Below are positions 5,373-42,963 of a stretch of DNA of 49,394 nt, piece after piece (the stretch's first letter is position 1; every line of letters begins with the position of its first letter). Where the stretch lies: positions 1 through 49,394 of IMG/VR virus record IMGVR_UViG_3300046001_004180. One strand, 5' to 3'. Below the pieces are notes generated by a model. That model was not told where the DNA came from. It was given only the letters and a program-made list of their open reading frames with translations, and did no database searches. The position numbers and the translations under genes were made by a program. Origin of the DNA: a virus.

Positions 5373-6983
5373 ATGGCAGACGATAGTTGGTTAGTTGATG
5401 TAAAGAAGAAACTTGATAAGATGCCAGAAGAAGGCAAAGGCATACGAGAGGCAGCCTTAAATGATTTATACTTCTTTGCTCGTCTTGTCAATCCGGGGTA
5501 TATGTATGGCGATTTACATAAAGAAGCTTTTAAATGGATGGAGGAGTATTCCTTATATGGACAAGGCTCTGTTCAGCTAACCAATAAGCTTCTCCTTCTC
5601 CCTCGTGCCCACCTAAAGAGTCATATGGTGGCTACGTGGGTAGCTTGGGTTATTACACGTAATCCAGAAGTAACAGTGTTATACGTATCAGCTACAGCGA
5701 GTTTGTCTATTGCTCAGTTGTATGCCATTAAGAACATCTTGACATGCCCTTCTTACACCAGATATTTCCCTGAGTATGTACACCCTCAGGAAGGTAAGCG
5801 TGAGAAGTGGAGTCAAGATGCAATTTCAATAGATCACCCTAAACGTAAATCCGAAGGAATCCGAGATGCTACAGTCGCTACCGCAGGTCTTACAACTAAT
5901 ACTACAGGCTGGCATGCCGATATACTTATACCCGATGACTTGGTTGTACCTGAAAACGCTTATACTGCCGATGGACGAGAAAGCGTATCTAAGAAGTCCT
6001 CACAATTTACTTCGATCTTAAATGCAGGTGGGTTCACGATGGCTTGCGGCACTCGTTACCATCCTTCTGACATATATGCTACATGGAAAGCTCAAGAGTT
6101 TGACATCTACAGTGAAGAAGGGGAAATAATTGATCGAGTGCCTGTGTGGGAAATTAAAGAATATGCAGTAGAAGAAGAAGGTAAGTTTCTCTGGCCTAAG
6201 ATGGTGAGGCCATCCGATAAGAAGTTCTTTGGATTTGATGCTCAAGTGTTAGCACGTATCCGTGCACAGTATGAGGACAGGATTCAGTTCTATGCCCAGT
6301 ATTATAATAACCCTAATGATCCCGGATCAAATAGGATTAACCGAGATAGGTTCCAATATTATGATAAGAAGTTTTTAAAACAAGATGGTGGACACTGGTA
6401 TTATAAACGTAATAAGCTTAATGTCTATGCTTCTATTGATTTCGCATTTAGTTTATCTAAGAAGAGTGACAATTCCGCCATTGTTGTTATTGGTGCTGAT
6501 GCAGATGGTTTTATCTATATCCTTGATATTGATTGTTTTAAAAGTGATAAGATAGGAGAGTATTTCTCCCGTATTGCTGCTCTTCATTCTAAATGGGAAT
6601 TCAATAAACTCAGGGCAGAGGTTACCGTAGCACAGACCGTTATTGTACGTGATCTTAAGGATAAGCTTAGAGAAGAGGGATTACGTCTCTCTATTGATGA
6701 GCATCGCCCTACACGTAACGAAGGAACTAAGGAGGAGCGTATTGCTTCTGCATTAGAACATCGTTATGAGAATCAGCAGATATGGCACTTTAAAGGGGGC
6801 TACACTGATGTGTTGGAGGAGGAGCTTATCCTAGCTAGGCCAGCTCACGATGACATCAAGGATGCCCTAGCATCAGCTGTAGAGATTATAGTTAAGCCTA
6901 AACGATCCAACAGATCGGATATGGATGTAGGTAATGTGGTTCAGATTAATTCAAGGTTTGGAGGAATAGCCTTTCGGGGTTAA
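5373..6983 (+). CDS. Terminase large subunit (packaging ATPase and nuclease)
   Basis: The 536-residue packaging motor has ATPase and nuclease halves. The ATPase shows a deviant Walker A at about 77-83 (PRAHLKS) and Walker B at about 184-189 (DILIPDD). The C-terminal RNase H-like nuclease shows Asp356 in NVYASIDFAF, an acidic strand at about 416 (RAEVT) and HDDIKDAL at 492-499, matching the usual triad of acidic metal ligands. Length and domain order fit T7 gp19-like TerL. The protein translocates DNA through the portal encoded immediately downstream and cuts the concatemer. The overlapping end regions of the window are compatible with terminal redundancy. Confidence 0.93.
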   Translation: MADDSWLVDVKKKLDKMPEEGKGIREAALNDLYFFARLVNPGYMYGDLHKEAFKWMEEYSLYGQGSVQLTNKLLLLPRAHLKSHMVATWVAWVITRNPEVTVLYVSATASLSIAQLYAIKNILTCPSYTRYFPEYVHPQEGKREKWSQDAISIDHPKRKSEGIRDATVATAGLTTNTTGWHADILIPDDLVVPENAYTADGRESVSKKSSQFTSILNAGGFTMACGTRYHPSDIYATWKAQEFDIYSEEGEIIDRVPVWEIKEYAVEEEGKFLWPKMVRPSDKKFFGFDAQVLARIRAQYEDRIQFYAQYYNNPNDPGSNRINRDRFQYYDKKFLKQDGGHWYYKRNKLNVYASIDFAFSLSKKSDNSAIVVIGADADGFIYILDIDCFKSDKIGEYFSRIAALHSKWEFNKLRAEVTVAQTVIVRDLKDKLREEGLRLSIDEHRPTRNEGTKEERIASALEHRYENQQIWHFKGGYTDVLEEELILARPAHDDIKDALASAVEIIVKPKRSNRSDMDVGNVVQINSRFGGIAFRG

Positions 6984-10017: not shown

Positions 10018-10965
10018 ATGTCCCAATCGCGCAGCAACTCAACAGCTTTCATTGAAAGCGAACAATATTCAAGTTTCATCCTGCAAAACTTGCATGACGG
10101 CTTGCTCCCAGGTGTAATGTATCGTAACGTATCAGACTTCGGCTCTGGCACTACATTACATATCAAAACAGTAGGTACGGTCACTATTCAGGACGGTGCT
10201 GAAGAAGTTCCATTCGATTACACACCAATTGAATCTGGTGAAGTAACCTTGACAATCGCTGACTATGTTGGTGATGCTTGGTATGTCACAGATGATTTGC
10301 GTGAAGATGGTGCTCAAGTAGAAGCTCTTATGTCTGCTCGTCAGGTTGAGTCTACCCGTGCTATTCAAGAAGTCTTTGAAACACGCTTCCTGAAGAAATG
10401 TAATTCTTCGCAAACTAATGCCAATGCCAATTTGATTAATGGTTTTGCTCATCGTATTGCTTCTGCTGCTGTAAACAACGTAGCTGAACTGTCTGCTTTC
10501 ATTAAGATGAAGCTGGCATTCGATAAAGCTAACGTCCCTATGGCAGGTCGTGTTGCTATTGTAGACCCTGTAGTTGGTGCTACATTGGATGGCTTGGTTT
10601 CTATCGGTCGTGATGTTACACCATTTGCTGAGAAGATTCTGGAAAGCGGCTTTGGTCGTGACCACCAGTTCTTGATGAACTTGTATGGCTGGAACATCAT
10701 CACTTCTAACCGTTTGTTTACAGCTGCATCTGGCCAAGGTGATGGTACAACCACTCCTGCCAACTCTGTATCGAATGTGTTCATGTGCGTAGCTGATGAC
10801 AACACTAAGCCTATTATGGCTGCATGGCGTCGTATGCCTAAGGTAGAGGGCGATCGTAATAAAGATTTGCGTCGTGATGAGTTTGTTACCTCTGCTCGTT
10901 GGGGCTTCGGTGCTCAACGTGTTGACACACTGGGTATCTACATCACTTCTGCTGTCAACTCTTAA
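10018..10965 (+). CDS. Major capsid protein (HK97-fold, podovirus type)
   Basis: This 315-residue protein follows the scaffold by 12 bases with AGGA before the ATG. The sequence matches podovirus coat proteins in style: N-terminal arm, a beta-rich E-loop region (TTLHIKTVGTVTIQDGAEEVPFDYTP), spine helix (EALMSARQVESTRAIQEVFETRF), and P- and A-domain segments including FDKANVPMAGRVAIVDPVVG. The C-terminal end (RRDEFVTSARWGFGAQRVDTLG) is typical of capsid subunits of this group. Codon use is regular and highly biased, as expected for an abundant product. Confidence 0.92.
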   Translation: MSQSRSNSTAFIESEQYSSFILQNLHDGLLPGVMYRNVSDFGSGTTLHIKTVGTVTIQDGAEEVPFDYTPIESGEVTLTIADYVGDAWYVTDDLREDGAQVEALMSARQVESTRAIQEVFETRFLKKCNSSQTNANANLINGFAHRIASAAVNNVAELSAFIKMKLAFDKANVPMAGRVAIVDPVVGATLDGLVSIGRDVTPFAEKILESGFGRDHQFLMNLYGWNIITSNRLFTAASGQGDGTTTPANSVSNVFMCVADDNTKPIMAAWRRMPKVEGDRNKDLRRDEFVTSARWGFGAQRVDTLGIYITSAVNS

Positions 10966-10982
10966 TCTAAGGAATATATAAT

Positions 10983-11453
10983 ATGACATATGCAAATAGC
11001 GCAGGTTTGGGCGTATTCAATCAATACGGTACACGAGAAACAGGTCAGTCGATTGGTGTTGAAACCACTAGCGATAGTGAGTTTAAGCTCTCTGTCACCC
11101 TAACTGGTGAATCAGTTAATAACGCTTTTATGCCACCTCTGGTGATCCCTAAGGGCGCTCTTGTGAAAGAAGCTGTATTGCGAGTAGATGAGGTGTTTGT
11201 AATCTCTGCTTCTGGCACTCTGGCTATCGGTGGTACAGCCCCAGGCACTAACGGTATTGTCCTCACCGAAGCTCAGTTGGAAGCTGTAGGCACTAAGCTA
11301 GTGAGTGCTGTTGGTATCGGTACTTGGGCAACTGCCTCGGCTACTGGTACAACTGCTGCTGAGAAGGTAGCTAAAGTGCTTACCGGCACTGCTGGTGCAA
11401 CTGCTGGTAAAGCAACATTGATGGTTACATTCATCAATAAGACAAAAGTTTAA
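10983..11453 (+). CDS. Putative head decoration or head-associated protein
   Basis: A 156-residue beta-rich, Gly/Ala/Thr-rich protein directly after the capsid gene with a good ribosome site (AAGGAATATATAATATG). It lacks recognised motifs; strands such as VNNAFMPPLVIPKGALVKEAVLRVDEVFV suggest a jelly-roll or Ig-like fold. Position between the capsid and a strong terminator suggests co-expression in high amount as an outer decoration or capsid-stabilising protein. That role is inferred only from context. Confidence 0.6.
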   Translation: MTYANSAGLGVFNQYGTRETGQSIGVETTSDSEFKLSVTLTGESVNNAFMPPLVIPKGALVKEAVLRVDEVFVISASGTLAIGGTAPGTNGIVLTEAQLEAVGTKLVSAVGIGTWATASATGTTAAEKVAKVLTGTAGATAGKATLMVTFINKTKV

Positions 11454-34020: not shown

Positions 34021-35652
34021 TTATTTAATTTCATTGAATAAACCGGTTTTATTGTCATAATACACAACAGTTTTTCCTGAACTACCTGTTGTACGATCTT
34101 CTAATAACAACAGTTCACGTATGTTTCGTTGCTCTTCAGGGAGATTGGGGTCTTTATTCCCACAAATACCAATCATTGCATGACAGCTTCTCATCATTGC
34201 TCGTGATCCAGCGAACTGTTGAGACTGAACAGCCCCTCCTCGTTCATGCGGTGGTCCTTGATCTGGTGCTTTCAGGTGGCAGTATATATGGCAAACAACT
34301 TGCAAGTCCATAGCCAGTTGAGCTAACTCTTGTGACATCTTCTGCAACAAAGTGTTCGCATCAGCAGGGTTATACGCATTACTTAACGTAGTGATTGGAT
34401 CAATAAAGATTGCCTTACATCCCTCGTTAGCAGCTTGTCGTATATCTGCCTTTAGAACATCCCAGCTAAGCTCTTGATAGAGGTTGAGCATAAACAAGCT
34501 GTCTTCTACTAAAGGAACACCCTTATCGAAAGCATCAAAATCAAAAGGAATATTAGGATCATGGAAGATTTTACCAACCATCTTACCAACCACCCCTTGA
34601 AGCGTACGGGCATTACTCTCCTCGGTCTTAACTACAAACACCTTCCACTTATGCTCTTTTATATTCCAAGCAGCCAAGTCATCAAGGAAGGCACTCTTAC
34701 CCATCTTAACACCTGCCCCCCAATAAACACACTCACCAAGTCGTTGACCTCTTGTAAGTTTTGTAAGCCCTTCATATGGATAAGAAAACCCCCATTCTGC
34801 CTCTTTTCTTGCTGCATCAACTACAGAGGAGCCTGACACCAACCTAGTGTTCTTAGGCTTCTGTGCATTAAATGTACAAGCATTGTAAGCAGCTTTATTA
34901 CGTCCTTGCATTAGGCATTCATTAGCATCTTTAGCGGGAAGCTTAGCAACAACTGCATCTGGGATTACCAACATGGTGTCGTCTATAGCTTTCTGCCCTG
35001 CTACATCATTATCAAATACTAATACAACTTCTTTAAAATGCTCACGAATACTCTTGAGACAACGAGAAATATCCCTACTAGCACTTCCTGCACCATGAGG
35101 TAGGCTAACAATAGAAGGATTAAAGGCAGCATAAGCAGTGCCTTTGTTATGATCTTTGAATATCTGATATAACGAGGCTGCGTCAAGTTCACCTTCAGTG
35201 ATGTATAGACGCTTAGCACCAACTGCAATAGCTTGTTGCCAACCAAATAAATCAACATCTTTCTGATCGCCTATGCTCCACATCTGTTTAGATTCGATTA
35301 CACGGGCCTTGTAGCCCACAATATCACCACCCTGTGTGTATGGGTAGTAATGCACCTCCGGTGTCTCTCCGTCCGTCTCAGACACCCCTATCTTGATATT
35401 GAAATACTCAAGAGTTTCTTTTGTAAGCTTACGATCAGGGAGGGCTAAGGTTTGATACTCCGTAATAGCATCAACTTCCTTAGCCATCTCCTCTTTACTC
35501 TTACGTAAACGAACAGGTTTGTAATCAGCAGGTTTATCTTTATACGGATCGGGTATGTATTTATTTGTAGCAAAATCATATCCATCATATGTCCCGTCCT
35601 CTTTAAGGAATATCTGAACACTTCCTATCTTCTCAACACATATACCGGACAT
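34021..35652 (-). CDS. Primase-helicase (TOPRIM plus DnaB-like, T7 gp4-type) with degenerate zinc domain
   Basis: A 543-residue fusion. The primase part has TOPRIM motifs ITEGELDA and VVLVFDNDVAG. The helicase part has Walker A GVKMGKSAF, Walker B-like CKAIFIDPIT, and a C-terminal Arg-finger region (SQQFAGSRAMMRSCHAMIGI). The N-terminal 40 residues keep the beta-ribbon look of the gp4 zinc domain (VQIFLKEDGTYDGYDFATNK), but only Cys5 of the four zinc cysteines remains. AAAGGATATT before ATG 35652 supports this start, so the loss is not due to a wrong start. It unwinds DNA and makes primers at the fork. Confidence 0.93.
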   Translation of the reverse strand: MSGICVEKIGSVQIFLKEDGTYDGYDFATNKYIPDPYKDKPADYKPVRLRKSKEEMAKEVDAITEYQTLALPDRKLTKETLEYFNIKIGVSETDGETPEVHYYPYTQGGDIVGYKARVIESKQMWSIGDQKDVDLFGWQQAIAVGAKRLYITEGELDAASLYQIFKDHNKGTAYAAFNPSIVSLPHGAGSASRDISRCLKSIREHFKEVVLVFDNDVAGQKAIDDTMLVIPDAVVAKLPAKDANECLMQGRNKAAYNACTFNAQKPKNTRLVSGSSVVDAARKEAEWGFSYPYEGLTKLTRGQRLGECVYWGAGVKMGKSAFLDDLAAWNIKEHKWKVFVVKTEESNARTLQGVVGKMVGKIFHDPNIPFDFDAFDKGVPLVEDSLFMLNLYQELSWDVLKADIRQAANEGCKAIFIDPITTLSNAYNPADANTLLQKMSQELAQLAMDLQVVCHIYCHLKAPDQGPPHERGGAVQSQQFAGSRAMMRSCHAMIGICGNKDPNLPEEQRNIRELLLLEDRTTGSSGKTVVYYDNKTGLFNEIK

Positions 35653-35670: not shown

Positions 35671-35877
35671 TCATTTCGCTTCCTCCACTTCATGTACCAA
35701 CTCGGCAAGTTCATTTTTCTTTACGAACGCATCAAAATGGATTGCTGGCATGTATCTGATAAGCATGGAAATGTATAGCGTCTTCTCATGCTTGCGTAAG
35801 TATTGCCCCATAATTGTTAGTTGAAATACTGCTTCTTCCACAATCACTTCGCCACGCTGTTCTTGTGTTAGTTTCAT
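35671..35877 (-). CDS. Hypothetical protein, 68 aa
   Basis: A short helical protein (RGEVIVEEAVFQLTIMGQYL, FVKKNELAELVHEVEEA) coupled to the upstream zinc-finger gene by a four-base overlap. It belongs to a block of three accessory genes. Unknown function. Confidence 0.55.
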   Translation of the reverse strand: MKLTQEQRGEVIVEEAVFQLTIMGQYLRKHEKTLYISMLIRYMPAIHFDAFVKKNELAELVHEVEEAK

Positions 35878-36245
35878 TCTGCACTCCCTTTCAAAGCTCG
35901 TATGTTCTCAGCGCACATTACAAGTATGTCACCCTCTTCGGTGTATTCAGAATGTGCTTCAATCTCTTGTGCAGCCTCCTCAATAGCATCGTTACGAACA
36001 AGGACTGACTCACGCACCAACTGATCGCACTCCTGTTGCAACTTGTCGCGCTCTAGCTGCTCAATGCGGTCTGAATGCTGCGCTAGTGCTGCTGACTCAC
36101 GAAGTCTGATAGCTTTTAGTTCTACCGATTCCATAGTCACAGCATAGTTACATACATGACATAATGGGATTGAAGATGACGCAGGACTTGCTCCTCCCGC
36201 CCCACAGACAGGACATTCGTACCGTATCCTTTTATCGTTGCTCAT
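35874..36245 (-). CDS. Zinc-finger / coiled-coil accessory protein, 123 aa
   Basis: The N-terminus has a four-Cys zinc finger (YECPVCGAGG ... IPLCHVCNY). A long Glu/Arg/Gln coiled coil follows (HSDRIEQLERDKLQQECDQL) and then a Glu-rich C-terminus. Similar proteins occur in the accessory regions of enterobacterial temperate phages. The text of the gene uses more GC-rich codons than the core genes, suggesting transfer. One speculative possibility is that it supplies the zinc finger missing from the primase. Confidence 0.6.
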   Translation of the reverse strand: MSNDKRIRYECPVCGAGGASPASSSIPLCHVCNYAVTMESVELKAIRLRESAALAQHSDRIEQLERDKLQQECDQLVRESVLVRNDAIEEAAQEIEAHSEYTEEGDILVMCAENIRALKGSAE

Positions 36246-36700
36246 GCTTTCTCCTCCACAGTGATTTTGCTGCCTTCAATTTTGCAAAGAATAGAGCTGC
36301 GATATGCAAGGGTCACATCCTCGCCTCTCAGATAGAACATATCTGTCGACCTGATTCTTCCTGATTCTGTCTTATAAGCCCACTGCCACATATCAACAGT
36401 TTTTGGCTTTGGCTTCTTGCGGTATATGGAAGATCGAAACCACTCGCATCCACCGCAGCAGTCGCGCCAAGTGTTTGATGACCCAAGATACTGCCACTCA
36501 ATACTTGGGTCAGCTTTCGCCTCGTCCATCAGTGCTTGATGTGGGTGTGGGTCAGGCTTGATGCGGTATTGACTTGGTGGTAGGCTGAAACTCAGATCAG
36601 TCTCATATATCCATACACCACTACAGTTCTTTTCAATAAGTTTACCCTCTGCCATCGCTTGTACCAGTGACAGGTATAAATGTGCGTTGTCTTTATTCAT
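36242..36700 (-). CDS. Phage accessory protein, 152 aa (lambdoid-type small protein)
   Basis: It contains YLSLVQAMAEGKLIEKNCSG and LPPSQYRIKPDPHPHQALM, a style common in small genes of enterobacterial phages. A repeat of W/C-rich beta segments follows (IEWQYLGSSNTWRDCCGGCE). ATGA overlaps on both sides place it in the amidoligase operon tail. Function is unknown. Base composition differs from that of the flanking genes. Confidence 0.6.
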   Translation of the reverse strand: MNKDNAHLYLSLVQAMAEGKLIEKNCSGVWIYETDLSFSLPPSQYRIKPDPHPHQALMDEAKADPSIEWQYLGSSNTWRDCCGGCEWFRSSIYRKKPKPKTVDMWQWAYKTESGRIRSTDMFYLRGEDVTLAYRSSILCKIEGSKITVEEKA

Positions 36701-37491
36701 TCAATACCCCTAAATTGATAAGGCAGGTCAATAGATAGCGAATAACTTAATGCAATATCCTGAGACATTTTAGGGTAGACAAAGCTCTTAGCTAAATCCC
36801 CTAACACAATCGTCATAAGCTCTTTATGCGTATGCTTCTCATATAACGCCTCTACATCAATAGGTGTCTTATCACGAGAGAATTCACGTATAGCAACAAG
36901 AGCTTTAATCCAGATAGAAAGAACATCTGTGTCTAATGTCCCTCGCATACCTCTAAACTCTAGGCTTCCAAACTTACAGGTAGCATAGATATTAAGAGCT
37001 GCATACCTCACTGCATCTTGTACAATATTCCTAAAACCATCTCTGATTCTGAACAAATTATAGAAATTACCAATAACCCCCTCAGCATCCCTAGCACGTA
37101 AGCAAAAGCGGTTTCCTTTACGCTCTTTACCACAGAAAGACATAAGAGGTTCTTCAAGAAGCAGGTATGTATAAAGGAAGCTCAAATATTCATTATACGT
37201 TAAATCTGTTACATTAACATGCACATGAACAGATGTTCTGAAAGAGAAATCAAGCAAACTACCTGCATCAGAAAGTTCTTGCTTTAATCCTATGATAGCG
37301 GCAATGGCTTCATTTTGCTCTAACGGTTTGGCTAAGATATATTCCTTATTCTCTCCACGTAAAGAACCATCAACTGTTGTACTCCATAATGGATTAGCTG
37401 AAGTGATTAGGTTTGTCCCTTCCACCTCAATCTCTACACCTACATCGCCCTCAACTGGAGCTATTCTCAATATCTCATGCAGCTTTTTCAT
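36697..37491 (-). CDS. Amidoligase (COOH-NH2 ligase, glutamine-synthetase-like fold)
   Basis: A 264-residue enzyme with the amidoligase signature: GVEIEVEG (metal-binding acidic strand), VDGSLRGENKEYIL, SVHVHVNV (His pair) and FGSLEFRGMRGTLDTD (Arg and Glu on the last core strand). The family forms amide or peptide bonds using ATP. It is the second ligase of the cluster and is paired with the type-2 ligase at 38079-38873. Its substrate is unknown: cell-wall peptides, a phage peptide or small molecules are possible. The start overlaps the 200-residue gene upstream by 17 bases. Confidence 0.85.
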   Translation of the reverse strand: MKKLHEILRIAPVEGDVGVEIEVEGTNLITSANPLWSTTVDGSLRGENKEYILAKPLEQNEAIAAIIGLKQELSDAGSLLDFSFRTSVHVHVNVTDLTYNEYLSFLYTYLLLEEPLMSFCGKERKGNRFCLRARDAEGVIGNFYNLFRIRDGFRNIVQDAVRYAALNIYATCKFGSLEFRGMRGTLDTDVLSIWIKALVAIREFSRDKTPIDVEALYEKHTHKELMTIVLGDLAKSFVYPKMSQDIALSYSLSIDLPYQFRGIE

Positions 37492-38077
37492 CTGTATTCC
37501 TAAATAGTTTAGCTAAATGCCTATGCCCTTCATTAAACTGTATATCTGCTACAGTTCCCCTAACAAGCATACGGCTCTTACCTACATTCACATTCTTGTA
37601 ATACACAGCACCAGATTCGTGTATGGCAAATTGTTTATCAAATGCACATATGCCACCAAAGGTTTTAACCTGAGTGCAAGCTTGCTTGAATGTAGGATAG
37701 GTGTCTAAGATTGCCTTACCTACCTCAGGGGATGTTAAAGCCCTAACCCCTGCCATAAGAGCTTGAACATCCACCTTGAAATCTATATTAGGGAGGGAAA
37801 CAGTTGTATTCCCTCTATTCAATCCCATAAAGAACTTACGAAAGGGATTACGTGTAAGGTATGCACAATACAGCCCTATGTTGACATACCCAAGCCTACG
37901 TAATGGAGAGGAGAACGCTTTTAATGTAAACACCGCCTCTCCTGTTTTCTGTGTAAGAAGGTCAGTGTATAACACCAACCCCTTAGGTGTAACTGTTTGT
38001 ATATATACAGGCTTATTCTTATACATTACAACACAGTTTACAAAATCTCTTACTAAATCTTTGTATGGAATTTCCAT
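37475..38077 (-). CDS. Conserved protein of the amidoligase cluster, 200 aa
   Basis: It lies between two amidoligase genes with one base to the upstream stop and a 17-base overlap downstream. The protein mixes beta strands and helices (YIQTVTPKGLVLYTDLL, NIDFKVDVQALMAGVRAL, GGICAFDKQFAIHESGAVYY). I do not recognise a catalytic motif. Its position suggests it is either the modified substrate, a carrier or a structural partner of the ligases. Confidence 0.65.
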   Translation of the reverse strand: MEIPYKDLVRDFVNCVVMYKNKPVYIQTVTPKGLVLYTDLLTQKTGEAVFTLKAFSSPLRRLGYVNIGLYCAYLTRNPFRKFFMGLNRGNTTVSLPNIDFKVDVQALMAGVRALTSPEVGKAILDTYPTFKQACTQVKTFGGICAFDKQFAIHESGAVYYKNVNVGKSRMLVRGTVADIQFNEGHRHLAKLFRNTDEKAA

Positions 38078-38078
38078 A

Positions 38079-38873
38079 TTATCCTCGGCATATCTCTAGT
38101 TTTTCCGATTTAATTATGGACATAGCAGCTTTTACATCACTATTATTAATGATGTCTTGTATGTCCCCGTATTTCTCAGAGAGGATGTTGCCTTCCATAA
38201 CAGAGGTAACAGCTTTCTGTGTGGCACGATATACCCATGCCATTAATTCTTTGCTATTCAACCAAGCGTTAGAGAGAGTGCGATACTCCACACCATAGCT
38301 CTTAGGGCGATATGCACCTGCCTTGCCATACATTGTACGACGACGTGTATTGTCATCATAGATTAAACTAGGCAATCCAAGATAGAAATCACATTGACGA
38401 GCGATAAGCTCACAGTCATTGAGATGACTAGCATCTAGGATGTCCTTACCATCTGCCCATCCGATATGTACATGCCCACTAGCGGTACGCATAGGGAGAT
38501 TACCATCAGGACGGGGGTTTGCTAAGCTATTCCATGCGTTAAAATCAGGGTCGCATCCAAGCTCTAAGGCTTCCTTAGGTTGAGATGAAAGATATTCCAA
38601 GGAGAAATCTGCTACAGGGGTAGCCACCACTTCATACGTAGGAACCATCGCCTTAATCGTAGCAAACACTTGCTGTACATTAAGAACAAACTCTTCTTCT
38701 GAATGAGCAGGGTCAATATTAAACTCCAGTGCCATACCGTCCACCTGAACAGCTCCATAAGGAACCTTCTGAGGATTCTTCTTATCCCCTTTAATCAGGT
38801 TATGAGCTGAAAGGAACACACCATTTTGTTTAACAAAGATTTCTGGATCGCAACCAACTAAGATTTTAGACAT
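38079..38873 (-). CDS. phiEco32-like COOH-NH2 ligase, type 2
   Basis: This 264-residue protein has an almost textbook set of motifs: LVGCDPEIFVKQNG, VQVDGMALEFNIDPA, TASGHVHIGWADG, RRTMYGKAGAYRPKSYGVEYRTLS. The acidic and His residues bind Mg-ATP and the Arg/Tyr end closes the active site, as in the glutamine-synthetase fold. In phiEco32 and relatives it occurs with the same ATP-grasp, GAT-II and hydrolase partners. The reaction is presumed to be ATP-dependent amide formation. Confidence 0.93.
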   Translation of the reverse strand: MSKILVGCDPEIFVKQNGVFLSAHNLIKGDKKNPQKVPYGAVQVDGMALEFNIDPAHSEEEFVLNVQQVFATIKAMVPTYEVVATPVADFSLEYLSSQPKEALELGCDPDFNAWNSLANPRPDGNLPMRTASGHVHIGWADGKDILDASHLNDCELIARQCDFYLGLPSLIYDDNTRRRTMYGKAGAYRPKSYGVEYRTLSNAWLNSKELMAWVYRATQKAVTSVMEGNILSEKYGDIQDIINNSDVKAAMSIIKSEKLEICRG

Positions 38874-38900
38874 TTTAAAGCTCCATTTATTTAAGATTTA

Positions 38901-39308
38901 TTACATTAATATTTCTGGTATTTCAACTTCATAACCCAACTTACTAGCTACATAGCAGCGCATTGCTGCGATTAATGCAGTTTCCCCGTTACTAAAGCAG
39001 TCTGAACCATCTTCTTCAAAGAGTTTATCTCGAAAGTAGGCAGACCACAGGCCCTGCACTATGTTATTGGGGTCAGTTGGGTCAACTTGGACACTAATAC
39101 CCTCACGCTCAATGATCGGGCCACCTTGCGCCCAACTGGTAGATGGGTGCCACGGCATCCACAAGTCCCAATGGTCTGGTAGCTCTTCACCATCTTCAGT
39201 GCGGCCTCGCACCTCCAGTCCACCTCCATGGTTAAAACTTATCTTACGGTTGTCACACTTCGCCACTGCCCAATCAAGCGCAGCGCCTTTCAGTTCTGAT
39301 GTTTTCAT
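38901..39308 (-). CDS. DUF2591 (NinX-type) phage accessory protein
   Basis: A 135-residue protein beginning MKTSELKGAALDWAVAKC, with PSTSWAQGGPIIEREGI and a C-terminal ALIAAMRCYVASKLGYEVEI. These are strong family features of the DUF2591/NinX proteins common in lambdoid enterobacterial phages. It interrupts the amidoligase cluster and has more GC-rich codons, so it is probably a recent insertion. ATG 39308 overlaps the GAT-II stop (ATGA); a longer reading to 39365 is inside the GAT-II gene. Confidence 0.85.
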   Translation of the reverse strand: MKTSELKGAALDWAVAKCDNRKISFNHGGGLEVRGRTEDGEELPDHWDLWMPWHPSTSWAQGGPIIEREGISVQVDPTDPNNIVQGLWSAYFRDKLFEEDGSDCFSNGETALIAAMRCYVASKLGYEVEIPEILM

Positions 39309-40606
39309 TTTAGATTCACATACTGCGTTATAAGACGATCTGTTGCACAAGATGAACAAAGGCACTCACCTCCTGTTGTAAAACGATTTGCTCTGTTAGG
39401 GTCAAGCTCATCATTACAATATGCACATATTGAATAGAGCTTTCTCCAATCACTTTCTGAGCGAGGGTAGCCATTAGCATCCTCATACGTAACATTACCA
39501 ACACGTTTAACTGTCCAAGGATTAACCTTGTAATAGCTTCCCTTGTTAGATACGGATACGTGGCTTCCTATGTCACATACCACTTCATCACCAATAGCTT
39601 TTTCTAAAGCTTTATCCTCAGCTCGTAAGTAGCAACGAATACTAACAAACGGATTTGCTGGATCAAAAAGAACAATGAAGGTAGCACCGTTAATGTCCTT
39701 TTCTGATGACAAGATTTCTAAGCGCAAATTCTTGGATTTTACGTAGTTGTAATCTACAGCTACTACCAATGTCTTTTTTACCTCACCTACGACAGGAGGA
39801 TTAGTGGTAACTTGTGTCGTAGGGGGTGTAAAATGATTAACATGCACCGGTGCAATATACACAGGAGCAGCACATCGCTTGGTTACAGGCTTAGACATAA
39901 TGCCTTTGTCTGCTATATGCACTGAATGATGCACATCTACATCGGTAAGGAATATCGGTGTATGTTTAATACCATTACGCCCCAATGCACCCTCTAACAT
40001 CCAAGGTTCTGATGCCCAGAACAACACTTGAGCATCCTCAGAACGACACATATATAATGGACGTTCTTTGTTACGTAGGAAGTTTAATGTCTGTTCAAGC
40101 TTATCCCACCACACTAAGCTCCAAGCATTAGCAGGAAAGCCTAATTTGCTAATAGCATCTTGAACACCCTTCTCCTCTATATGGTGATAGAGATTTTCAC
40201 TATCCACTTTATAATCAGAGGCATTCATCAGGGCATGCTTTGATGATAGCGTGCCATTGTGTACACCCACCAATGTATCAAACTCAAAAGGATGAGCACT
40301 GGCACGTGTTACACCACCCATGGTGGCATAGCGATTATGCCCGATAAGCACCTTATTACTCTGATCTAAGGCTTTATTATATTTGTTGCTATACAACAGA
40401 GCAAAAGGATCACCAAGCTCTTTAACCACCTTTACATTGCTTGTATGAGCATTTACAAATGCAACACCTGTACTATCTTCTCCACGTAGAGAATCTAATA
40501 CAAGAAGTTGACTCATTACTTTACGGTGAATTGGTAGAAGGTTACCAGCCATACCTGTAATTCCGCAAATGATAAAATCTCCATTTTTCCTAATGACAAA
40601 AGTCAT
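39305..40606 (-). CDS. Class II (Ntn) glutamine amidotransferase, phiEco32-type cluster
   Basis: GAT-II enzymes release ammonia from glutamine with an N-terminal Cys. Conserved pieces are CGITGMAG (nucleophile), LDSLRGEDSTGVAF, GHNRYATMGG, SAHPF and GVHNGTL. About 200 extra residues follow the Ntn domain, ending in a zinc-like CAYCND ... CLCSSC pair. The annotated ATG at 40606 places the Cys at residue 14, has no ribosome site and lies in a hairpin (AATGACTTTTGTCATT). An ATT at 40570, with GGAG eight bases upstream, would make it Cys2. Propeptide removal, as in Bacillus PurF, is the alternative. Confidence 0.9.
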   Translation of the reverse strand: MTFVIRKNGDFIICGITGMAGNLLPIHRKVMSQLLVLDSLRGEDSTGVAFVNAHTSNVKVVKELGDPFALLYSNKYNKALDQSNKVLIGHNRYATMGGVTRASAHPFEFDTLVGVHNGTLSSKHALMNASDYKVDSENLYHHIEEKGVQDAISKLGFPANAWSLVWWDKLEQTLNFLRNKERPLYMCRSEDAQVLFWASEPWMLEGALGRNGIKHTPIFLTDVDVHHSVHIADKGIMSKPVTKRCAAPVYIAPVHVNHFTPPTTQVTTNPPVVGEVKKTLVVAVDYNYVKSKNLRLEILSSEKDINGATFIVLFDPANPFVSIRCYLRAEDKALEKAIGDEVVCDIGSHVSVSNKGSYYKVNPWTVKRVGNVTYEDANGYPRSESDWRKLYSICAYCNDELDPNRANRFTTGGECLCSSCATDRLITQYVNLK

Positions 40607-40613
40607 TAATTAA

Positions 40614-41300
40614 TTAATTACGTAATTTCTTTACAATTGCCTTAGCCACATCATCTGTGAGCACAGGGCCGCTATTAGCCTCTAAGATAAGCACCTTACC
40701 ACGCTTATTAGCAAGCACATCAAACCCTACAAAGTCGATATTGAGAGCCTTAGCTGCCTTTAAAGCCATTGAATCAATATCCTCAAAGCCTCGCTTGAGC
40801 ATCTTAGTAAACTCCCAATCGCCATTGTCATCTATATCTTTACGATAACGCCCGATAACAGCCCCTTGGAATACAACCACACGGTATTCGCATTTGTGAT
40901 GGAAATACTTAGTGTATAAAGGGCATTCAGGAAGCTCTTCTCCCTGATATACATACGTCATACCCTTGTTAGCTTTCCCTGCAAGCTTCTCACGGCATAC
41001 AACAACATCCCATTCAACCGTATCAGCAGGGTTTGTTGTCCATTCTACAGTGGGAATATTGGCAGCATTCAGAGCTTTGAATGTCTCCACCTTATCTATA
41101 CATGCTAGAATCGAATTGGAGAGGTTTAAACGCCTCTTGTGGGCTGTTCCAGCACTACACCCATAGGAGAGTAGCAGGTCATACTCTGTGAAGTCTCTAC
41201 GCCCCGTTAAAGAGATGTTATTAGCATCTGCTCCTAATGCCTTAGCAAGAGCCTTAGCACTCTTGTTGCAGTGCTTTGAATACATTACACAGATTTTCAT
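40614..41300 (-). CDS. ATP-grasp ligase of the amidoligase cluster
   Basis: A 228-residue enzyme with the ATP-grasp C-terminal core: KYFHHKCEYRVVVFQGAVIG and FVGFDVLANKRGKVLILEANSGP, where Asp, Glu and Asn bind Mg-ATP. The N-terminal domain begins KICVMYSKHCNKSAKALAKAL. ATP-grasp enzymes join a carboxylate to an amine through an acyl phosphate. It is coupled to the hydrolase gene upstream (stop and start meet at 41300) and followed by the amidotransferase, so ammonia or an amino group may be handed from one to the other. Confidence 0.88.
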   Translation of the reverse strand: MKICVMYSKHCNKSAKALAKALGADANNISLTGRRDFTEYDLLLSYGCSAGTAHKRRLNLSNSILACIDKVETFKALNAANIPTVEWTTNPADTVEWDVVVCREKLAGKANKGMTYVYQGEELPECPLYTKYFHHKCEYRVVVFQGAVIGRYRKDIDDNGDWEFTKMLKRGFEDIDSMALKAAKALNIDFVGFDVLANKRGKVLILEANSGPVLTDDVAKAIVKKLRN

Positions 41301-41920
41301 CAGCTCATCCCCAGTTTTCGTGATAGCAACTCTTTAAAATACTTAGTCATACCTGCATACTCACCACCCATCATTTCAGGGTGAGGCTGAAAGCATAAGC
41401 TCTTGGTGTGCTCATAGAACACCACCTCAATATCCTCAGTTGAGACATCCTTCTTAGCCACTTGCCCATCCATCCACTCCCTAGTACCACCAAGGGTGCT
41501 AGAAGCCACTAGGAAGCCCTTAGGAGAGGGCATCATCATCTGGTGGTGGGTACTACTCACCCACACTGTCTCGCCTGTCTCAAGGTCTGTAATCGAATGA
41601 GAACGTGTATGCTCAGATACATGCTGATACATACGTCCACCAGACATAACATTAAGGAACTGTGCTCCACGGCAGATACCCACCATTGGGATGCCCTTAT
41701 CTAGGGCACTCTTGAACACCATAGCTTCAATCTGATCTCGCTTCCATGAGCTATATGTATGCTTGTGAGGAGAATCACCATACAATGAAGGGGTTACATC
41801 TTCACCACCAGTGAAGCAAACCAAATCTGCATTAGCAAACGTATCTGTAACAGCAAAACCTATCTCCAAGAACAGGCGCTTGTATGCCCCATCACGATTT
41901 ACAATATATACATTTTTCAT
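41300..41920 (-). CDS. Class I glutamine amidotransferase-like / gamma-glutamyl hydrolase (peptidase C26)
   Basis: The 206-residue protein has the class I triad: nucleophile Cys in VGICRGAQFLNVMSGG, and His-x-Glu in CFQPHPEMMGG. ADLVCFTGGEDVTPSLYG near the start and SSTHHQMM are typical of C26 gamma-glutamyl hydrolases that cleave gamma-linked peptides. In this cluster it could trim or recycle the product of the ligases. It shares an ATGA overlap with the upstream gene. Confidence 0.9.
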   Translation of the reverse strand: MKNVYIVNRDGAYKRLFLEIGFAVTDTFANADLVCFTGGEDVTPSLYGDSPHKHTYSSWKRDQIEAMVFKSALDKGIPMVGICRGAQFLNVMSGGRMYQHVSEHTRSHSITDLETGETVWVSSTHHQMMMPSPKGFLVASSTLGGTREWMDGQVAKKDVSTEDIEVVFYEHTKSLCFQPHPEMMGGEYAGMTKYFKELLSRKLGMS

Positions 41921-42963
41921 TTTGCTTCCTTTATCATTGATTCAAATTTATCAGCAGCAGCATATAGCTGTTCATTGGTAAGAAATGGAGCACTGTCTCC
42001 AAATCTTAATTTCTCCCTCATTCCACTAAACCCTTTTACAAACTCATAAAAAGAGATTGTGGTTTTTGCTGTAGGGGACTCTATGTAATTAAACACGCTA
42101 TAATAATGGCTGTCTTGCGTAAAGGGCTTATTCTTTTTATCTAAGACATATCCCTTTTTAAAGAAAAGGGCAAGATTAGCTACACACATCCCACGGTGTA
42201 ACGCTTGATGCCCACCACCAAAGGCATTAAATATTATCTTATCCTTATCTCTACGGATGCACATCATCCCAAACATGATAGCGGTGTGTCCGCTATAGCC
42301 CTTATCCAACATCTCCTTGAACATATCAAGAAGGGCGGATTGCCACTCCCTACCCATACGTAAGGCAATACATGCAGCAGCAATACGATGCTTAGAACGT
42401 GTTACATTCATCAACACCTCACGCTTAACTCCTACATCGTATTTCTTAGTGATGAAGCAGCCCCTCCAAGGGCTTTTGTTCAAGATGTAATCAACATACA
42501 GCTTAAACGCTGCTTTATGCTCTGGAATCACCTTGCGTTCATCAAATGACAATCCATAAACAAGCTCCTTAACTGGAGATTCTTTCTTATATCCCAATGA
42601 CGCATGACAAGCAGCACCTAAATCTAGTTTACGTGTTCCATCATTGAATGTAAAAGCATAGGAGCAGCATCCTCCTGTCTTACCCTTGCTTCTAGCATGT
42701 AGCTCCGATCTAAGGGTTTTATACACCTTAATACGTGGGGGTTTAGGAGCTTTCTTGACTTCCCCTTTACCTTTTACAAGGGAGAGGCTTGAGGGTCTAT
42801 AGTAATAGGTATTGGAAAGGGTGATACTTCCATTTATCGAGATATGTTTAACCTCATACGTATTCCCATCATTAATGTATTTATCCATATATACAGCATA
42901 ATGGTGGTCATCTTTACCTATAACGTGTACAAAATCACCAACTTTAATTTGGTTATCAGCCAT
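41917..42963 (-). CDS. Unknown protein opening the amidoligase operon, 348 aa
   Basis: The first 65 residues look like an SH3-like beta barrel (KVGDFVHVIGKDDHHYAVYM ... YEVKHISINGSITL). A Pro/Lys linker (KGEVKKAPKPPRIK) and a larger domain rich in Cys, His and Arg follow, with CIALRMGREWQSALLDMF and FGGGHQALHRGMCVANLAL. I do not recognise the family. As first gene of the operon, coupled to the hydrolase, it is a candidate for the scaffold or substrate of the modification. AAGGAGCTAGTT upstream is a good ribosome site. Confidence 0.7.
   Translation of the reverse strand: MADNQIKVGDFVHVIGKDDHHYAVYMDKYINDGNTYEVKHISINGSITLSNTYYYRPSSLSLVKGKGEVKKAPKPPRIKVYKTLRSELHARSKGKTGGCCSYAFTFNDGTRKLDLGAACHASLGYKKESPVKELVYGLSFDERKVIPEHKAAFKLYVDYILNKSPWRGCFITKKYDVGVKREVLMNVTRSKHRIAAACIALRMGREWQSALLDMFKEMLDKGYSGHTAIMFGMMCIRRDKDKIIFNAFGGGHQALHRGMCVANLALFFKKGYVLDKKNKPFTQDSHYYSVFNYIESPTAKTTISFYEFVKGFSGMREKLRFGDSAPFLTNEQLYAAADKFESMIKEAK

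Follow-up and report, generated by a model that had tools for sequence, protein, structure and literature searches.

The stretch examined here, hereafter the window, is the complete virus record IMGVR_UViG_3300046001_004180 (49,394 nucleotides), and it carries on its minus strand, between 42963 and 36697, eight coding genes among which are two amidoligases, a GAT-II glutamine amidotransferase and an ATP-grasp ligase. This operon is a Zobellviridae-like version of the known phage amidoligase cassette, and we give an even chance to the view that it performs the ATP-driven joining of amino-acid-like units in the cytoplasm, early in infection. The matches to Peptidase_C26, RimK, GATase_6, COOH-NH2_lig and Amidoligase_2 are all above the curated Pfam cut-offs, which shows that a PF14395 ligase, a PF12224 amidoligase, a GAT-II and an ATP-grasp share one operon. 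An earlier note on this DNA had described such an operon at 36697-42963, with a C26 hydrolase, an ATP-grasp, a GAT-II, two amidoligases and two further proteins, and both the minus-strand open reading frames (ORFs) and Pfam confirm it. All seven of its genes were located, but an eighth, NinX-like, had been missed, and the coupled run continues past 36697, through ORFs of 152, 123 and 68 amino acids, to a primase/helicase, the cassette lying beside it in the early/replication region. Adjacent cassette genes are separated by short gaps or overlap by 1-17 bases. The features are as follows.

41917..42963, minus strand: lead protein, 348 amino acids, with an SH3-like N-terminal domain and a domain holding C119, R202, E206 and H252; putative thiol enzyme
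41300..41920, minus strand: Peptidase C26 family gamma-glutamyl hydrolase-like protein, 206 amino acids (Pfam 84.3 bits; triad C83/H180/E182)
40614..41300, minus strand: RimK-like ATP-grasp ligase, 228 amino acids, of the divergent upstream type (Pfam RimK 25.0 bits)
39305..40570, minus strand: GAT-II glutamine amidotransferase, 421 amino acids from the proposed ATT start (GATase_6 49.7 bits)
40568..40570, minus strand: proposed ATT start codon of GAT-II, with GGAG seven bases upstream
38901..39308, minus strand: NinX-like putative passenger (Pfam Phage_P22_NinX 75.3 bits)
38079..38873, minus strand: LIG1, COOH-NH2 ligase (PF14395), 264 amino acids, identified by Pfam and GS-like by family definition
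37475..38077, minus strand: INT, 200 amino acids, between the ligases; SH3/Tudor-like barrel followed by a helical and beta-hairpin part; putative adaptor
36697..37491, minus strand: LIG2, Amidoligase_2 (PF12224), 264 amino acids (Pfam 34.0 bits, cut-off 22)
35671..36700, minus strand: three small ORFs (152, 123 and 68 amino acids), where relatives carry the downstream ATP-grasp
34021..35652, minus strand: primase/helicase, the constant neighbour of the cassette (PHROG 239, E 1e-147)

Composition and conservation of the cassette

Scanning viral contigs with a LIG1 profile returned 371 relatives, from which 80 loci were kept, while the counts per family come from iterated profiles seeded with window proteins only, applied to 90 loci, a few of which represent the same phage in two collections. 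Profiles were needed for this purpose, as single-sequence scans of viral contigs with the lead protein and INT gave no match, nor did a tblastn search of INT in phages. The families were recovered at the following frequencies among the 90 loci: lead 75, C26 77, ATP-grasp 84, GAT-II 89, LIG1 88, INT 86, LIG2 85 and NinX 4. The commonest order is lead, C26, GAT-II, LIG1, INT, LIG2, ATP-grasp, primase, and among the 68 loci whose sequence takes in the primase as well as the C26 or lead end, all seven parts are present in 64 and an ATP-grasp in every one. Chance falls far short of explaining this arrangement, whose order recurs in about 90 loci, and the lead protein and INT are fixed parts of the cassette, not private to the window phage. 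With these two, the parts list for rebuilding the pathway is complete. The cassette is widespread, LIG1 occurring in 316 phage records, and some of its carriers infect laboratory E. coli and P. aeruginosa.

The active sites of the known families are intact in relatives; the earlier note had taken their disruption as a sign that would speak against a working system. The C26 triad (C83, H180, E182) is invariant in 77/77 sequences, and the nearest solved structures are Lin1909, chains named 'probable glutamine amidotransferase' and PuuD. The ExExE and HxH motifs of LIG2 are likewise invariant (85/85), and many residues of LIG1 do not vary across 88 sequences. Profile-profile comparison among the cassette families revealed no shared origin.

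The ATP-grasp sets the window apart from the standard arrangement. Its RimK score exceeds the Pfam cut-off of 21 bits and is accompanied by a RimK-family NCBIfam match, while the R2K scores remain below theirs (R2K_3 18.4 vs 26.3 bits, R2K_2 15.6 vs 26.2 bits). It lies 5' of GAT-II, and the usual copy downstream of LIG2 is absent, a configuration with upstream-position types only that is shared by 12 other loci. ATP-grasps of the upstream and downstream positions fall into separate groups, between which exchanges are few; the window protein belongs with the upstream ones, its exact placement being unsure owing to long branches. The description of the system as 'complete' in the earlier note is therefore right in that an ATP-grasp is present, divergent and upstream, but not in the sense of the usual downstream one; a single ATP-grasp of any type seems sufficient for the cassette.

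The NinX-like ORF (38901-39365, probable ATG at 39308, Pfam E 6e-21) overlaps the GAT-II stop and is located between GAT-II and LIG1 in the window, while it occurs at other positions in 3/89 other loci. It appears to be a mobile passenger, because it is rare (4/90 loci) and its position varies. The three small ORFs have no homologue in the other loci. The 123-amino-acid one (35874-36245), specific to this lineage, harbors an N-terminal CPVC...CHVC motif resembling a zinc ribbon. A role as a LysW-like carrier was rejected for it, since it is present in the window phage only.

The 49.4-kb record also encodes TerL, a major head protein and tail proteins, together with a ribonucleotide reductase, a thymidylate synthase, a polymerase and a sigma factor. 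At the DNA level, the window matched none of 50,697 phage records. We call the virus a Zobellviridae-like podovirus, because its LIG1 shares 52-63% identity with Zobellviridae proteins. Bacterial genome contigs with the entire cassette have the look of phage contigs that ended up in metagenome bins, and the neighbours of weaker cellular LIG1 homologues are uninformative.

The lead protein and the protein between the ligases

Both proteins had been proposed in the earlier note as the best candidates for a scaffold or substrate. For the lead protein this proposal does not agree with the pattern of conservation, since it belongs to a cassette-wide family with enzyme-like features: among Zobellvirid-type members, Cys119 (73/73) and Arg202 (74/74) are invariant, and His252 (74/75) and Glu206 (71/74) nearly so. 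Because of these residues, the lead is probably a thiol enzyme rather than an inert scaffold, and its C119 is a clear target for mutation. In the AlphaFold2 model (mean pLDDT 84.7), the N-terminal domain is SH3-like, and the four residues lie in a second, mixed domain. No relative was detected in Pfam, NCBIfam or PDB sequence profiles, nor any profile similarity to LIG1 or LIG2. A structure search of viral proteins matched proteins of CVT22, CW02, the phiEco32-like GAP52, Proteus phage 3H10_20 and RIO-1, and outside such phage proteins the fold had no match. Profile searches gave homologues in CW02, WD615, phiM6 and RIO-1; those in LAh_6 and 3H10_20 were weaker. The proteins at the lead position in phiEco32-like and LUZ24-like phages keep the Cys in a 'C-aromatic-G' motif and mostly the Arg. 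These alignments are weak, and the LUZ24-like pair is at most a putative homologue of the lead. The lead family as a whole likely represents one new enzyme family. Resemblance of the lead to a GS fold of the PafA type (PafA 4bjr_B, Z 4.9, root-mean-square deviation 4.4, 164 residues aligned) was not taken as evidence.

INT keeps its place between the ligases across all lineages examined, phiEco32-like, LUZ24-like, RIO-1 and phiM6 phages among them. Its predicted structure has a mean pLDDT of 92.7, with an N-terminal part that resembles Tudor/SH3 barrels (Z 5-6, generic), and the sequence profiles of Pfam, NCBIfam and PDB gave nothing for it beyond short, weak matches to small models of the SH3-like type. 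Against the PDB, Foldseek and VIA-align gave only generic SH3-like matches for the N-terminal domains of the lead and INT, in a comparison that barely covered the domains outside these parts. The residues that stand out in INT are G63 (86/86) and R76 (84/86), and there are no catalytic-looking invariants. An adaptor or substrate-holding protein is the better guess for INT, considering its SH3/Tudor-like barrel and the lack of a catalytic signature. Of the earlier proposal, an adaptor role for INT remains reasonable. Features expected of a substrate, a conserved last residue for instance, were not found in any cassette protein or family, although an acceptor could lie elsewhere.

The start codon of the glutamine amidotransferase

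The Cys nucleophile of GAT-II enzymes must be N-terminal, and it is conserved in 65/66 of the cassette sequences that reach this position. Which codon precedes it? In 80 genes, it is ATG in 45, ATT in 18, ATC in 6 and TTG in 7, so that ATT or ATC is found in 24/80 cassettes, namely the window and 23 relatives such as L006, L025, L066 and L085. All 24 of these genes have a correctly spaced Shine-Dalgarno sequence, four bases long or more, as compared with 24% of control positions, and in 18 of them no ATG, GTG or TTG occurs between the upstream stop and the Cys. In the two other families compared, such starts are absent (LIG1, 0/74) or nearly so (C26, 1/76).

The window gene itself has an in-frame ATG at 40606, 12 codons before the ATT, and because of this upstream ATG the case for ATT in the window rests on its relatives. 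Translation could instead begin at 40606, the ATT not being a start, with a short propeptide cleaved to expose the Cys, as occurs in some PurF enzymes. Since ATG 40606 has no Shine-Dalgarno sequence, and the relatives have the properly spaced sites and the lack of canonical starts just described, we regard this propeptide as very unlikely. Initiation at ATT is preferred: the window gene probably starts at 40570-40568 rather than at 40606, and if translation begins there, the Cys would be exposed at the N-terminus.

Well-supported branches of the LIG1 tree require 15 or more changes to or from ATT/ATC, on a phylogeny that does not track intergenic regions, which recombine. AUU starts are used in E. 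coli infC and pcnB and are repressed by IF3. The strength of the start codon would probably set the output of GAT-II, AUU or AUC being used repeatedly. Such starts explain why the GAT-II nucleophile is missing from some public annotations, and genes taken from them would be cloned inactive. In Klebsiella phage KpnP_VR7901 (L006, 4669-4720), the annotated start lies 17 codons downstream of the ATT and the Cys is lost, and in Pseudomonas phage O4 (L196, 1941-3143), with ATC before the Cys, the annotated protein has 400 amino acids vs 437 in TC6. At its other end, GAT-II carries a zinc-ribbon-like CxxC...CxxC tail (about 39341-39425 in the window), present in 87 or 88 of 88 sequences.

Possible products and targets, and likeness to known cassettes

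According to the chemistry of their families, GAT-II would release ammonia or a gamma-glutamyl unit from glutamine, the two GS-like ligases and the RimK-like ATP-grasp would form successive amide bonds, probably gamma-glutamyl or isopeptide, and the C26 protein would trim gamma-glutamyl groups. INT may keep the enzymes together, and the lead, as a thiol enzyme, may process the product or transfer it to its target. As the least certain step, the product would alter an envelope precursor, a protein or a small metabolite of the host to the benefit of the phage. The gamma-glutamyl theme is suggested by the C26 relatives, which are gamma-glutamyl hydrolases, and by gamma-glutamyl cyclotransferase genes in or beside the cassettes of CW02, KG853, RIO-1, Bas93, phiM6 and Vp_R1. 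No such cyclotransferase was recognized by Pfam among the ten window ORFs from the lead to the 123-amino-acid one, and this gene, variable among the cassettes, was not counted as a defining one. For the cassette of Sinorhizobium phage phiM6 (L093), the annotation lists a C26 protein as well as a gamma-glutamyl cyclotransferase, and glutamine amidotransferase genes at both 5410-6552 and 10328-11434. The cassette may be acting early, as supported by PSA-HP1, a RIO1-like relative in which the cassette genes are 'expressed immediately', before takeover and DNA metabolism genes (PMC7082346).

Several observations weigh against this scheme. No PDB fold matches the lead protein, and its Glu and His are lost, in weak alignments, from the counterparts at this position in phiEco32-like and LUZ24-like phages. 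Membrane or export segments are not obvious in most cassette families, yet hydrophobic stretches exist in some ATP-grasp and LIG2 members. Finally, the relative L118 (1-7290) has a primase 49% identical to that of the window and no cassette in the 5.6 kb of sequence available upstream, and the cassette may for this reason be accessory or dispensable. The region upstream of the L118 primase contains many small ORFs and a sigma-like gene.

What, then, would be the target? Cell wall, protein and small molecule are guesses that we place close to equal. The wall is a tentative candidate: unusual side-chain linkages would be put on cytoplasmic peptidoglycan precursors, blocking superinfection or preparing lysis. 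Wall stem peptides contain gamma-glutamyl bonds, and immediate-early expression in PSA-HP1 fits superinfection exclusion. That altered wall side chains prevent superinfection is a published hypothesis (Iyer 2009 and Hardies 2013), as stated in PMC5498523, PMC11945000 and PMC10580990, but no experiment on it was reported in the papers found. The cassette includes no wall-specific or export protein, and most of its proteins lack membrane segments, so that only new precursors could be reached.

With nearly the same low likelihood, the cassette may instead tag a host or phage protein with glutamyl or peptide units, INT or the lead picking the target. The ATP-grasp resembles RimK, which acts on ribosomal protein S6, the SH3-like modules of INT and the lead and the four-Cys motif of GAT-II are typical docking parts, and early expression would agree with such a role. 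Phage protein modification has also been proposed for R2K ATP-grasps (PMC4431377), but the R2K_3 score in the window is below the Pfam cut-off, and neither a conserved acceptor terminus nor a tag protein is found in the cassette.

We are no more inclined to a soluble gamma-glutamyl compound, glutathione-like or a gamma-glutamyl amine, serving nitrogen or redox metabolism or acting against host defence. The combination of a GCS-like ligase, an ATP-grasp and a gamma-glutamyl cyclotransferase mirrors glutathione chemistry, and a glutaredoxin adjoins the RIO-1 cassette, but the window ATP-grasp scores as RimK-like and not as glutathione synthetase. A search with defence-system models gave nothing convincing, counter-defence being outside the coverage of these models. 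The role in nitrogen metabolism proposed for phage ZRK32 (PMC10945688) is based on growth data, not chemistry. DNA hypermodification was set aside, no modification enzyme being recognized among the proteins scanned.

Under the joining scheme that we favour, a bolder version may be formulated, in which the lead founds an undescribed thiol enzyme class and constitutes, with INT and the three ligases, a conjugation system tagging a host target early, while GAT-II is throttled by IF3-responsive, repeatedly evolved AUU/AUC starts; taken as a whole, this is quite unlikely.

The earlier note considered the set to be known by genomics alone, its product and target not being known, and indeed no report of a product was found in the literature. 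It had correctly recognized the type as that of phiEco32-like phages, but the set is not limited to them, as it also occurs in phiRIO-1, PA11, LUZ24, tf and CW02. In PMC5498523, a 'peptidoglycan modification cassette' is given as conserved in phiRIO-1, PSA-HP1, phiEco32, 7-11, PA11, tf, MR299-2, LUZ24, PaP3 and CW02; Hardies 2013 is cited there, and in PMC11945000, as the source of the description. The phiRIO-1 and PSA-HP1 cassettes share with the window GAT-II, the PF14395 ligase, the PF12224 amidoligase, an ATP-grasp, an INT-like protein between the ligases, a lead homologue and the adjoining primase/helicase. They differ in that the window has C26 in place of the gamma-glutamyl cyclotransferase, its ATP-grasp upstream of GAT-II and a NinX insert, and the RIO-1 lead homologue, unlike that of the window, has no His at the aligned position. 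Zobellviridae cassettes (TC6/PA11, CVT22, KpnP_VR7901, CW02 and oyster phages) follow the window's order of lead, C26, GAT-II, LIG1, INT and LIG2, but carry the downstream ATP-grasp that it lacks. Cassettes of phiEco32-like (Bas93, 3H10_20, LAh_6) and LUZ24-like (KG853) phages have LIG1, INT, LIG2, GAT-II and an ATP-grasp beside the primase, as in the window, whereas they have no C26, GAT-II lies downstream of LIG2, and two divergent proteins occupy the lead position. The INT of Poriferisphaera phage ZRK32 (OP650935.1, 13994-14545) shares 40.6% identity with its LUZ24-like counterpart, and the 'nitrogen metabolism' genes reported for this phage would for this reason belong to the same cassette. 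This kind of cassette is thus already described, and what is new here is a fuller parts list, the membership of the lead and INT, and the non-standard start of GAT-II.

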